Part shown: positions 25,259-29,244 of the stretch, piece by piece
How positions within the stretch are numbered: position 1 is the first letter of the stretch
How the letters are laid out: the number at the start of each line of letters is the position of its first letter
Origin: Arcobacter sp. F2176
Lineage (GTDB): Bacteria; Campylobacterota; Campylobacteria; Campylobacterales; Arcobacteraceae
DNA length: 64,000 nt
Assembly: GCF_004116465.1 (NCBI RefSeq)
Contig: NZ_PDJV01000004.1
Location: 62,001 to 126,000 of the forward strand
Direction of reading: 5' to 3'
Notes under the pieces: generated by a model
Told to the model about the DNA's origin: nothing
What the model saw: only the letters and a program-made list of their open reading frames with translations
Database searches by the model: none
Translations under genes and position numbers: made by a program

Positions 25259-25291
25259 ATCATAAAGTACCAAATAAAGGTACTTTATGAT
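25259..25291 (-). terminator. Hairpin at the end of the two-component operon
   Basis: A perfect 13-bp stem (25259-25271 with 25279-25291) with an AAATAAA loop, covering the response regulator stop codon. The T tract after it is poor, so it may only partly stop transcription before the symporter genes. Confidence 0.55.
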
Positions 25292-25947
25292 GAATAGTAT
25301 CTTTCTACTTTATATCCAAGTCCTCTAATATTTTTAATAAAGTCTTCTTTTAGTGCTTTTTTTAATCTTGAAATTTCTGCTCTAATTGTAGGATTATCTA
25401 TATCTTCTGCATCCCAAACATCAACTCTAAATCTTTCAAAATCTACAATCATATTTATATTAAGTGCAAGTATATGGATTATTTCTAATTGTTTTTTAGT
25501 TAAATTTTGAGCTTCATTATTAAAATATAAAATTTTATCAGTTTTTGAATATGAATAGTTTTCAGAAAATTTTATATGAGAAGTAGTTTGTTTGTCTTTT
25601 TTCAAAATTTGATTAATTTTAATACCAAGCTCCTCTAAGTGAAAAGGTTTTTTTATATACTCTCTACACCCAAGTTTGTATGCTTTTGTTATGTCTTCTA
25701 TATCTATAAGTGCAGTAATGAATATTGTAGGTACAAATGTATTTTTTTTATTTAATGTATCTAAAATATCAAAACCATTTATAGTAGGGACATTTACATC
25801 TAATATCAATAAATCATAAGATGTATCTACATTGTCTAAAACATCTTGACCATCAGTAAAACTAGTGACTCTATGTCCAATATTAGATAAGTATTCACTT
25901 ATGGCATTGTTTAACATCATTTCATCTTCAAGAAGTAGTATTTTCAT
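25285..25947 (-). CDS. OmpR-type response regulator
   Basis: A 220-residue two-component regulator. The receiver (1-115) has the acidic cluster Glu7-Asp8-Glu9, phosphoacceptor Asp50 in L-L-I-L-D-V and Lys100 in K-K-P-F. Residues 128-220 form a winged-helix DNA-binding domain ending R-A-E-I-S-R-L-K-K-A-L ... I-R-G-L-G-Y-K-V-E, as in OmpR/PhoB. The ATG at 25947 lies inside the 3' end of the kinase gene (20-base overlap) and gives the normal start M-K-I-L-L-L-E-D-E; the longer frame adds 12 residues. It is cotranscribed with the kinase. Its likely targets are the adjacent symporter genes, given the direct repeat upstream of them. Confidence 0.93.
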   Translation of the reverse strand: MKILLLEDEMMLNNAISEYLSNIGHRVTSFTDGQDVLDNVDTSYDLLILDVNVPTINGFDILDTLNKKNTFVPTIFITALIDIEDITKAYKLGCREYIKKPFHLEELGIKINQILKKDKQTTSHIKFSENYSYSKTDKILYFNNEAQNLTKKQLEIIHILALNINMIVDFERFRVDVWDAEDIDNPTIRAEISRLKKALKEDFIKNIRGLGYKVERYYSS

Positions 25948-27508
25948 TTGTTGTAAACCTATATGTAAATTTTGTATTCTCATTTGTTGAATCTAAGTTA
26001 ATTATAACCTTATTCTTATCACAAATTTCTTTTACGATTCTAAGACCCAATCCAAAGCCACCTCTAGCATCATTTTCCCTATAGAAATCATTAAATATTT
26101 TTTCAGTATTTTCTATTCTTTTTGAAATTGTTTTAACTTCAAAAATTATTCCTAAGTCATCTTTTAGCAATTTAATATAAATAGGGGAGTCTTTAAAAGA
26201 GTATTTTATTGCATTGGAAATATTATTATCTAGTATTCTTTGTAATAGTGTTTTATTAAAATTTATAAAAATAGGATCTTGAATATTTGTGACAAAAAAT
26301 AGTGAATTTGAAGTACAAATATCATCAAAGAAGTCTAATCTATTTTTTAAGTATTCTGAAAAATTAAAAAATTCTTTTTCATAGTTTACCCTATCTTTTT
26401 TTATCATAAAAGACAAATCATCAAAAATATATTGGATAGTTTTTGCTCCACTTTCTATGTTTCTTATGTATTTGTTAGTTGGATTACTCATTTTATATAA
26501 ATCAAGATTTGTTTGAATAATAGATAAAGGTGTATTTATTTCATGAACAGAGTTTTTAATAAACTTTTTCTGTTTTTCAATTAATTGAGTTAGTTGCTTT
26601 GTTTGTTTTGTAACAGTTGTTTCTAAGTGAGTATTTAAATCACTTAACATATTGTTTTTGCCTTTAATACTATGCATTGCATCATAGGCATAGTTAGCAA
26701 TAATTTTAAACTCACCAAAAATGATTTTATTTTGATTTATAGGATTATCATTATTTTGAGAATCTTTAAAGTATTTTCCAATAGCTTTAACATCATTTAC
26801 TATAAGAATAGTTGCATTTTTATATATAAAAATAGAATATAAAACTAACATTATTGTTAAAGACAATATTTGAAGGGTATAGTTTGAAATTTTTTCATCG
26901 TATTCAAATTGCTTCTGAGCAACTATTTTATCCAAGTCAGTTAAATATACACCAGTTCCTACTGTCCAGTTCCATGGTTCATAAGACAAGGCAAACGAAA
27001 TCTTTTTTACTTCCTTTTTGTCTTTATGTTTAATCCATAAATATTCAACATATCCTCCTGAATTATCTTTTGAAACATTGATAAGTTCTTTAACTAATTT
27101 TTTGCCTGTTTTATCAGTATAATTAAGAAGGTTTTTTCCAACTAATTGTTTTGATGCAGGATTGTAAATTGCTGTTCCAGAATAATTATAAATAAATAAG
27201 TAATTGTCTTTTTTATTTTTATCTCTCATATTTTCAATTGCTTCTAAAATATCTTTTTGAAGTTCTTTTTGAGATTTTGCATTTTTATATTTTTTGTCGT
27301 AAAAGTCTATAAAATTAATTACATTTTCTATTTCATTTTTCATTTTATATTTTTGTTTATTTGCATAATCAGTTTTTATTATTTCTATTTTTTCTTGAAA
27401 GTCATCAAATGCATTTTCTATTATTATAAAAGTAAAAAAAGATATTAGAATAATTATAAAAATAATACTGTAAAGAATTAAGTGATAAAGAGATTTTGCT
27501 TTAATCAT
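25928..27508 (-). CDS. Cache-domain sensor histidine kinase
   Basis: A 526-residue membrane sensor kinase. Residues 9-30 and about 210-230 are transmembrane helices, enclosing a periplasmic single-Cache domain (about 35-205) with the segments Y-L-F-I-Y-N-Y-S-G-T-A-I-Y-N-P and W-N-W-T-V-G-T-G-V-Y typical of sCache_2, which binds small carboxylates in several relatives. The cytoplasmic part has the H-box V-H-E-I-N-T-P (His322), N-box D-N-N-I-S-N-A-I-K-Y and G-box G-G-F-G-L-G-L. AGGAC precedes the ATG. It overlaps the response regulator gene by 20 bases, so the pair is a cognate system. A carboxylate signal such as acetate would fit the neighbourhood, but is inferred. Confidence 0.93.
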   Translation of the reverse strand: MIKAKSLYHLILYSIIFIIILISFFTFIIIENAFDDFQEKIEIIKTDYANKQKYKMKNEIENVINFIDFYDKKYKNAKSQKELQKDILEAIENMRDKNKKDNYLFIYNYSGTAIYNPASKQLVGKNLLNYTDKTGKKLVKELINVSKDNSGGYVEYLWIKHKDKKEVKKISFALSYEPWNWTVGTGVYLTDLDKIVAQKQFEYDEKISNYTLQILSLTIMLVLYSIFIYKNATILIVNDVKAIGKYFKDSQNNDNPINQNKIIFGEFKIIANYAYDAMHSIKGKNNMLSDLNTHLETTVTKQTKQLTQLIEKQKKFIKNSVHEINTPLSIIQTNLDLYKMSNPTNKYIRNIESGAKTIQYIFDDLSFMIKKDRVNYEKEFFNFSEYLKNRLDFFDDICTSNSLFFVTNIQDPIFINFNKTLLQRILDNNISNAIKYSFKDSPIYIKLLKDDLGIIFEVKTISKRIENTEKIFNDFYRENDARGGFGLGLRIVKEICDKNKVIINLDSTNENTKFTYRFTTNENTTS

Positions 27509-27580: not shown

Positions 27581-27657
27581 TGGCGCGGCTGAAGGGACTC
27601 GAACCCTCGACCTCCTGCGTGACAGGCAGGCGTTCTAACCAACTAAACTACAGCCGC
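27581..27657 (-). tRNA. tRNA-Asp(GTC), cassette copy 1
   Basis: A 77-base gene including an encoded CCA end. Anticodon GTC sits in the loop C-T-G-T-C-A-C; the acceptor stem GCGGCTG pairs with CAGCCGC. It is the last gene of the array in transcription order. The spacer to tRNA-Val of this copy differs from copies 2 and 3. Confidence 0.97.
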
Positions 27658-27676
27658 ACTATTATTTTAAAAAAAA

Positions 27677-27752
27677 TGGTGGTCGATATAAGACTCGAAC
27701 TTATGACATCTACCTTGTAAGGGTAGCGCTCTACCAACTGAGCTAATCGACC
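27677..27752 (-). tRNA. tRNA-Val(TAC), cassette copy 1
   Basis: A 76-base gene including CCA. Anticodon TAC; acceptor stem GGTCGAT pairs with ATCGACC. The 19-base spacer to Asp is unique to this copy. Confidence 0.97.
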
Positions 27753-27755
27753 GAT

Positions 27756-27830
27756 TGGTGACCCCTAGGAGACTCGAACTCCTGTGATTGGAATGAAAAT
27801 CCAAGATCCTAACCGCTAGATGAAGGGGCC
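27756..27830 (-). tRNA. tRNA-Glu(TTC), cassette copy 1
   Basis: A 75-base gene including CCA. Anticodon TTC; acceptor 5' GGCCCCT with 3' AGGGGTC, including one G-T pair. Three bases separate it from tRNA-Val. The uridine at the wobble position is a substrate of MnmA, encoded twice in this window. Confidence 0.97.
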
Positions 27831-27863
27831 AATCGAAATATTTGAAAAGTTTACTTTTAAAAG

Positions 27864-27939
27864 TGGTGACCCGTAATGGATTCGAACCATTGGCCCCCTC
27901 ATTAAAAGTGAGATGCTCTACCAACTGAGCTAACGGGTC
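27864..27939 (-). tRNA. tRNA-Lys(TTT), cassette copy 1
   Basis: A 76-base gene including CCA. Anticodon TTT; acceptor stem GACCCGT pairs with ACGGGTC. Eight bases separate it from the next Asp gene. Confidence 0.97.
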
Positions 27940-27947
27940 ATAAATAG

Positions 27948-28024
27948 TGGCGCGGCTGAAGGGACTCGAACCCTCGACCTCCTGCGTGACAGGCAGGCGT
28001 TCTAACCAACTAAACTACAGCCGC
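27948..28024 (-). tRNA. tRNA-Asp(GTC), cassette copy 2
   Basis: Same 77-base sequence as copy 1, 367 bases further on. The Asp-Val spacer that follows is shared with copy 3. Confidence 0.97.
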
Positions 28025-28045
28025 ACTAATTTATAACACTTAAAA

Positions 28046-28121
28046 TGGTGGTCGATATAAGACTCGAACTTATGACATCTACCTTGTAAGGGTAGCGCTC
28101 TACCAACTGAGCTAATCGACC
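28046..28121 (-). tRNA. tRNA-Val(TAC), cassette copy 2
   Basis: Same 76-base sequence as in copy 1, with anticodon TAC and encoded CCA. Confidence 0.97.
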
Positions 28122-28124
28122 GAT

Positions 28125-28199
28125 TGGTGACCCCTAGGAGACTCGAACTCCTGTGATTGGAATGAAAATCCAAGATCCTAACCGCTAGATGAAGGGGCC
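28125..28199 (-). tRNA. tRNA-Glu(TTC), cassette copy 2
   Basis: Same 75-base sequence as in copy 1. The Glu-Lys spacer on its 5' side (33 bases) is identical to that of copy 1. Confidence 0.97.
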
Positions 28200-28232
28200 A
28201 ATCGAAATATTTGAAAAGTTTACTTTTAAAAG

Positions 28233-28308
28233 TGGTGACCCGTAATGGATTCGAACCATTGGCCCCCTCATTAAAAGTGAGATGCTCTACCAACTGAGCT
28301 AACGGGTC
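28233..28308 (-). tRNA. tRNA-Lys(TTT), cassette copy 2
   Basis: Same 76-base sequence as in copy 1. The eight-base spacer to the next Asp gene is also repeated. Confidence 0.97.
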
Positions 28309-28316
28309 ATAAATAG

Positions 28317-28393
28317 TGGCGCGGCTGAAGGGACTCGAACCCTCGACCTCCTGCGTGACAGGCAGGCGTTCTAACCAACTAAACTACAGCCGC
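28317..28393 (-). tRNA. tRNA-Asp(GTC), cassette copy 3
   Basis: Same 77-base sequence, 369 bases after copy 2. Confidence 0.97.
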
Positions 28394-28414
28394 ACTAATT
28401 TATAACACTTAAAA

Positions 28415-28490
28415 TGGTGGTCGATATAAGACTCGAACTTATGACATCTACCTTGTAAGGGTAGCGCTCTACCAACTGAGCTAATCGACC
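28415..28490 (-). tRNA. tRNA-Val(TAC), cassette copy 3
   Basis: Same 76-base sequence, with the same Asp-Val spacer as copy 2. Confidence 0.97.
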
Positions 28491-28493
28491 GAT

Positions 28494-28568
28494 TGGTGAC
28501 CCCTAGGAGACTCGAACTCCTGTGATTGGAATGAAAATCCAAGATCCTAACCGCTAGATGAAGGGGCC
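28494..28568 (-). tRNA. tRNA-Glu(TTC), cassette copy 3
   Basis: Same 75-base sequence. The 53-base spacer on its 5' side, toward Lys, is unique and marks the promoter-proximal edge of the amplified unit. Confidence 0.97.
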
Positions 28569-28621
28569 AATCGAAATAATGTGTATTAAAAATAAACATG
28601 AAAATAAATCATTTTAATTAA

Positions 28622-28697
28622 TGGTGACCCGTAATGGATTCGAACCATTGGCCCCCTCATTAAAAGTGAGATGCTCTACCAACTGAGCTAACGGGTC
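28622..28697 (-). tRNA. tRNA-Lys(TTT), cassette copy 3
   Basis: Same 76-base sequence. It is the first gene transcribed, directly behind the consensus promoter at 28720-28748. Confidence 0.97.
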
Positions 28698-28719: not shown

Positions 28720-28748
28720 ATTATAAGAAAAAATTTTTTATTTGTCAA
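28720..28748 (-). promoter_or_regulatory. Consensus sigma-70 promoter of the tRNA array
   Basis: On the minus strand TTGACA (28748-28743), a 17-base spacer and TATAAT (28725-28720), both hexamers perfect. The start point would fall about 15 bases before the first tRNA-Lys. The -35 box lies within the last codons of pncC. Perfect -35 boxes are uncommon in this phylum and fit a very strong stable-RNA promoter. Confidence 0.88.
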
Positions 28749-29244
28749 GGGTTTTTTGCAAAAATTTTGAAATTTTAAATAATGAACTTTTTGCAGCTTG
28801 AAATTGTACTTCTTCTCTGTTACCAAAAAATTGAAATATATCTATTTCCTGATAACCGTCATCTCCCATTATTCCGATGATTACATGACCTACAGGCTTA
28901 GTTTTTGTACCGCCATTAGGTCCTGCAACTCCAGAAATTGCTATTGCATAATTTGCATCAAATTTTTTTATTACTCCACTTAACATTTCCTTAACTGTTT
29001 CTTTGGAAACTGCTCCAAATTTTTCTAAGGTTTTATTTTGTACATTTAGTTCTTGATTTTTTATTTTATTTGAATATGAAACTATACTTCCATTAAAAAT
29101 ATTTGAAGATCCAGATATCTTAGTTATAAGTGAAGCAACTAATCCTCCTGTACAAGATTCAGCACAAGTAATACTCTTATTATGTTTAAGTAATAAGTTT
29201 TGCATATCAATCATATCTTGTTCATTAAATATCTCATTAAACAT
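28738..29244 (-). CDS. pncC: Nicotinamide-nucleotide amidase (CinA C-terminal family)
   Basis: A 168-residue CinA/PncC-family protein, which deamidates nicotinamide mononucleotide to nicotinate mononucleotide in NAD recycling. Signatures: A-E-S-C-T-G-G-L-V-A near residue 28, with the catalytic Ser, and A-I-A-I-S-G-V-A-G-P-N-G-G near 106. Only the C-terminal amidase domain is present, as in the short PncC form; the COG1058 domain of full CinA is missing. The end of the gene contains the -35 box of the tRNA array promoter. The mqo terminator is not between it and the tRNA genes, so transcripts may run on. Confidence 0.9.
   Translation of the reverse strand: MFNEIFNEQDMIDMQNLLLKHNKSITCAESCTGGLVASLITKISGSSNIFNGSIVSYSNKIKNQELNVQNKTLEKFGAVSKETVKEMLSGVIKKFDANYAIAISGVAGPNGGTKTKPVGHVIIGIMGDDGYQEIDIFQFFGNREEVQFQAAKSSLFKISKFLQKTLDK

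Follow-up and report, generated by a model that had tools for sequence, protein, structure and literature searches.

The 12 tRNA genes found at positions 27581-28697 of the window, by which is meant the whole 64,000-nucleotide stretch of Arcobacter sp. F2176 DNA analysed here, are best read as a chromosomal tRNA operon at a fixed locus, whose third unit arose by unequal crossing over within a tract spanning a Val and a Glu gene; we place the probability of this reading at roughly 0.8. The array is an ordinary but unusually readable change in tRNA gene dosage, of a kind common in the family. Events of this kind, in which tRNA genes are duplicated in tandem and homogenized, are known, and the mechanism is not new. 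Its value lies in a clean reconstruction together with a family-wide picture: the recombination step, the breakpoint tract and a two-unit counterpart are all legible from the sequence. No description of the array in Arcobacter was found in open-access papers.

Organization of the tRNA array

All 12 genes were located on the minus strand with ARAGORN. In plus-strand coordinates the array reads Asp-Val-Glu-Lys three times, that is, Lys-Glu-Val-Asp three times along the direction of transcription, with unit periods of 367 and 369. Each of the 12 genes scores between 54 and 75 bits with Rfam RF00005 (gathering score 29), adopts a canonical tRNA fold and has an encoded 3' CCA. The genes, as identified by ARAGORN and Rfam, are the following.

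28622..28697, minus strand, tRNA-Lys(UUU), promoter-proximal unit
28494..28568, minus strand, tRNA-Glu(UUC), proximal unit
28415..28490, minus strand, tRNA-Val(UAC), proximal unit
28317..28393, minus strand, tRNA-Asp(GUC), proximal unit
28233..28308, minus strand, tRNA-Lys(UUU), middle (hybrid) unit
28125..28199, minus strand, tRNA-Glu(UUC), middle unit
28046..28121, minus strand, tRNA-Val(UAC), middle unit
27948..28024, minus strand, tRNA-Asp(GUC), middle unit
27864..27939, minus strand, tRNA-Lys(UUU), promoter-distal unit
27756..27830, minus strand, tRNA-Glu(UUC), distal unit
27677..27752, minus strand, tRNA-Val(UAC), distal unit
27581..27657, minus strand, tRNA-Asp(GUC), distal unit

Each gene type is represented by one distinct sequence (76, 75, 76 and 77 nt for Lys, Glu, Val and Asp) with 100% identity among the three units. 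Positions 27673-28209 match positions 28042-28578 at an offset of 369 over 537 bp with zero mismatches, so that 27673-28578 forms a perfectly periodic stretch of 906 bp. The tripled-unit pattern is far beyond chance.

Spacers and the origin of the third unit

Spacers in the array range from 3 to 53 nt. The Glu-Val spacer is ATC in all units, and the Asp-Lys spacer has the same 8-nt sequence at both junctions. From the promoter-proximal to the promoter-distal unit, the Lys-Glu spacers are of types d, b and b, and the Val-Asp spacers of types c, c and a. The distribution of these types, established by spacer comparison, is given below; for a and d the best match is the spacer of the same type in the sister genome described later.

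28569..28621, minus strand, Lys-Glu spacer d (53 nt), proximal unit only
28394..28414, minus strand, Val-Asp spacer c (21 nt), proximal unit
28200..28232, minus strand, Lys-Glu spacer b (33 nt), middle unit, same as that of the distal unit
28025..28045, minus strand, Val-Asp spacer c (21 nt), middle unit, same as that of the proximal unit
27831..27863, minus strand, Lys-Glu spacer b, distal unit
27658..27676, minus strand, Val-Asp spacer a (19 nt), distal unit only

The middle unit is thus a hybrid, since its spacer b recurs only in the distal unit and its spacer c only in the proximal unit. Self-comparison of the array and in-silico crossover identified the segment at which such a hybrid could be produced.

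27673..27840, no strand assigned, 168-bp tract identical to 28411-28578 (offset 738), crossover homology

This tract spans Val, the ATC spacer and Glu. When the middle unit was removed in silico, a two-unit array of 748 bp was obtained, and one unequal crossover between two such arrays reproduced the observed 1,117 bp without a single difference. Exact regeneration in silico was achieved at any of 169 crossover positions within the tract. Unequal crossing over is supported as the best explanation of the third unit. It had already been proposed in a first-pass annotation of this DNA, which described twelve tRNA genes in three copies with periods of 367 and 369, gene sequences identical among copies, Lys-Glu spacers alike in units 1 and 2 (counted along the plus strand), Val-Asp spacers alike in units 2 and 3, and outer spacers unique. 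ARAGORN, Rfam and the spacing agree on the genes and periods; the single sequence found for each of the four genes and the spacer types bear out the remainder of the description; and the proposed mechanism is upheld by the exact in-silico crossover and by a sister genome that has the two-unit state and orthologous spacers.

In the mechanism we envisage, a chromosomal Lys-Glu-Val-Asp operon with a strong sigma-70 promoter would give a single precursor transcript for the whole array, to be processed into twelve ordinary tRNAs. The exchange would be homologous recombination of the RecA type between sister chromosomes. Repeated exchange and conversion would then hold the gene copies identical as the spacers drift, and the extra units may be retained for the higher tRNA dosage that they provide for amino acids in heavy use. 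Duplicating an entire outer unit was another route modelled in silico; with neither of the two did this reproduce the observed sequence.

Promoter, neighboring genes and locus

The array lies between the following features.

28720..28748, minus strand, predicted array promoter TTGACA-17-TATAAT, 12/12 consensus sigma-70, from a promoter scan
28738..29244, minus strand, CinA C-terminal-domain gene, directly upstream, next to the tRNA cluster across much of the order
25928..27508, minus strand, Cache-domain sensor histidine kinase gene, 72 bp downstream and co-directional, a neighbor in most of the family

Similar promoter sequences were found 5' to the first Lys gene in 12 compared arrays. The tRNA genes are co-directional, are separated by short spacers and have a single upstream sigma-70 promoter predicted from the sequence, which are the hallmarks of an operon. 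The scan detected neither a promoter-like site within the array nor a terminator between 27400 and 28900. The last codons of the cinA-like gene, Leu-Asp-Lys, contain the -35 hexamer (28738-28748), and the promoter and the CinA C-terminus therefore constrain each other. On the other side, genes for the Cache sensor kinase and its response regulator (25285-27508) come directly after the array, an adjacency kept in most of the family. Because these genes follow without a detectable terminator, transcription from the tRNA promoter could continue into them.

The presence of cinA upstream is conserved in the family. It is exceedingly improbable that the array is mobile or phage-borne, in the manner of the tRNA array units on mycobacterial plasmids. 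Mobile elements can carry clustered tRNA arrays (PMC12803027), but here the locus has a fixed place in the family, with cinA on one side and the kinase gene on the other, cinA is the neighbor in other families of the order too, and the adjoining genes are ordinary chromosomal ones. No tRNA-Asp gene was found elsewhere in the genome.

Copy number among relatives

A search with the initial 450 bases of the array as query gave matches in 60 of 60 relatives. In the 31 closed genomes of the family, taken as those of one or two contigs, the arrays have two units in 25 cases, three in 4 (G004, G014, G030 and G114), four in 1 (G007) and five in 1 (G035); the minimum in all 31 is two. One extra gene is present in each of G007 (Lys), G030 (Glu) and G003 (Glu). 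Among arrays of three or more units from other genera in which an odd unit can be distinguished, this unit is the promoter-distal one in G004, G014, G030, G035 and G114. The arrays of G035, G007 and G004 are not simple assembly loops, since their inner units carry private bases.

Among the draft genomes checked, a contig end cuts the array in 18, and N residues lie inside or beside it in two (G002 and G080). One uninterrupted unit is seen in 16 drafts, although some of these single units may be real. Because contig ends cut the array so often and 16 drafts show one unit, drafts tend to under-count units. The first-pass annotation had suggested that copy number might vary and that the array would be easily mis-assembled; between species the number does vary, from 2 to 5 units in the 31 closed family genomes, and mis-assembly mostly takes the form of under-counting in drafts. 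Counts of tRNA genes from drafts of this family are thus unreliable at the array locus, which affects studies that relate tRNA number to growth or codon use.

The sister genome and alternative readings

The sister genome, taken as that of Arcobacter nitrofigilis CI^T (G001; PMC3035288), is closed, consists of one contig of 3,192,235 bp and has two units at the equivalent locus. Compared by position, its spacers are identical to those of F2176 at levels of 0.84 (a), 0.88 (b), 0.95 (c) and 0.77 (d), and each positional pairing scores above any other pairing. Because the sister has two units with positionally matching spacers, the three-unit and two-unit states are one exchange apart. Either a gain here or a loss in the sister would lead to the same pair of states. 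For the third member of the genus, a draft assembly shows one unit, whose Val-Asp spacer contains an N; two units are the commonest state in closed genomes. A recent gain of the third unit appears favored, since the two-unit state is common in closed genomes and the adjacent units of F2176 are without differences. It would be improbable, by comparison, for three units to be ancestral in the genus and for the sister to have lost the hybrid unit through the same kind of crossover. The exchange run in reverse does yield the sister's array, and four closed genomes from other genera have three units, but two units are by far the commonest number (25/31 closed genomes) and zero differences over 537 bp between adjacent units suggest that the third unit is young.

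It should be noted that the F2176 genome (G000) is a draft of 98 contigs, with the array deep inside a 250-kb contig. If only two units were real, a short-read assembler might have circled the b-Lys-Asp-c-Val-Glu loop twice and printed the exact hybrid; a two-unit assembly graph built from words shorter than the 168-bp tract would hold exactly such a loop. The extra unit has no private base and is an exact repeat over 537 bp, as a loop would give, the sister has two units, and drafts of the family frequently break within the array. However, the usual draft error is the opposite, namely breaks and single units, and the position of the array so far inside its contig also speaks against an artefact, as do the closed genomes in which this locus holds 3, 4 or 5 units and the private bases in the inner units of the closed arrays of G035, G007 and G004. 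We consider an artefact quite improbable, and leave it a small share of the probability because a second passage through the loop would print exactly this hybrid unit. It is distinctly improbable that more than three units are present and that assembly has collapsed the remainder: the 906-bp periodic stretch exceeds a short read and closed relatives have 4 and 5 units, but there are no Ns and no contig end in the array, and the sister has two.

Concerted evolution and gene order

Two-unit arrays of the Lys-Glu-Val-Asp order combine uniform genes with divergent spacers. There are 0 mismatches between units over 304 gene positions in 24 of 29 such arrays, and between-unit spacer identity among them is as low as 26%. 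In several species pairs, among them G012/G066 and G073/G084 (other genus), each spacer has its ortholog at the corresponding position of the partner genome, which places the duplication before the separation of the species. In these two pairs the genes show no differences within a genome, whereas 1 position (G012/G066) or 4 positions (G073/G084) distinguish those of one genome from those of the other. Copies are thus closer within a genome than between species despite the greater age of the duplication, which is the pattern of concerted evolution. The pair formed by F2176 and its sister cannot by itself show this, since both have the same gene sequences. Recurrent exchange or conversion would be the natural reading, probably helped by strong selection on tRNA sequence.

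Other gene orders are found in several genera. These include Lys-Val-Glu-Asp, both orders mixed, Lys-Glu-Val-Glu-Asp followed by Lys-Val-Asp, and Lys-Val-Asp followed by Lys-Glu-Val-Glu-Asp. Shuffled-order arrays with the four tRNAs in equal numbers are located at L178, L180, L184, L185, L062, L054, L065, L066 and L034, and nearly all arrays of other order hold equal numbers of the four genes. Shuffled orders can be obtained through losses from expanded arrays, although the events are few and the species not independent. For example, three canonical units that lose Asp1-Lys2, Val2 and Glu3 can give Lys-Glu-Val-Glu-Asp plus Lys-Val-Asp. A shuffled order with the four genes in balance is the less common feature of these arrays, and balanced, order-shuffled arrays suit the testing of selection on relative tRNA dosage. 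More tentatively, and on balance we think it unlikely, the family locus might act as a standing regulator of translation dosage, in which unit number is labile, order is reshuffled, and selection keeps the genes near 1:1:1:1 with at least two sets (in closed genomes). If so, the shuffled orders would represent expansion followed by loss back to equal gene numbers.

At two loci of one genus (L056 and L061), the Val-Asp spacers are 93-95 nt long and contain a conserved stretch with AATGCAGTGGCATT-like inverted symmetry, possibly a processing site or a small element.

Comparison with known systems

In E. coli, identical tRNA genes that lie in tandem, for example tyrT-tyrV, change in number by unequal recombination. 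The array described here resembles them in its identical tandem tRNA genes and in unequal exchange, but they are single-gene repeats whereas here the unit is a four-gene operon. Other families of the order have a Lys-Glu-Val-Asp cluster with the same four tRNAs, mostly in the same order and with cinA upstream; it mostly consists of one unit, whereas closed genomes of this family have two to five.

In evolved P. fluorescens SBW25 (PMC7661048), tRNA gene number also rises through tandem duplication of existing genes. Those duplications, however, involve blocks of 45-290 kb and arose in the laboratory, whereas here a 369-bp four-tRNA unit formed naturally between existing repeats. The rRNA/tRNA amplification of Streptococcus iniae (PMC9176272) is likewise a local tandem repeat that includes part of a tRNA array, is variable in number and is easily mis-assembled; a mixed population has been reported for it. 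Its unit is of about 7 kb and carries rRNA genes, whereas the present one has tRNAs only. The tRNA array units of Entamoeba (PMC2652664) are also tandem units of several tRNAs, uniform within a genome and with spacers that differ between species. Unlike the present array, they are eukaryotic, comprise almost all tRNA genes, occupy >10% of the genome and have short-repeat spacers. A mobile tRNA array of variable location, on a plasmid, phage or island, was considered as a further class and rejected on the basis of synteny.

tRNA inventory and gene dosage

An inventory based on an Rfam search and selected genome stretches found 55 tRNA genes in the F2176 genome. The array holds every Asp gene (three) and every Val(UAC) gene (three), together with three of the four Lys genes, the fourth being located elsewhere and identical, and three of the four Glu genes, the fourth being diverged. 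No source of tRNA-Asp or tRNA-Val(UAC) was found outside the array, which is also the chief source of tRNA-Lys and tRNA-Glu. Among the residues encoded by 50 ORFs of the window, Lys accounts for 9.6%, Glu for 6.9%, Asp for 6.3% and Val for 6.2%; in the longer ORFs of the window the four together contribute 29% of residues. This amino acid usage would fit a role in dosage without proving it. Demand per gene is not comparable for Ile and Ala, since their rRNA-linked copies have probably been collapsed in the draft.

The diverged second tRNA-Glu(UUC) gene, at G000:C3:258153-258228 (L106), is present in most of the family. Partial copies of its 3' end (45-47 bp, 98%) were found at G000:C3:288941-288985, about 30.8 kb from the gene on the same contig, and at G000:C13:56816-56862, on another contig. 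The sister genome has a partial tRNA-Glu copy about 5 kb away. Judged by these copies, the diverged gene looks like a putative attachment site of integrated islands. Just downstream of it there are several short AATTACCCCCTRGTA repeats, which are iteron-like.
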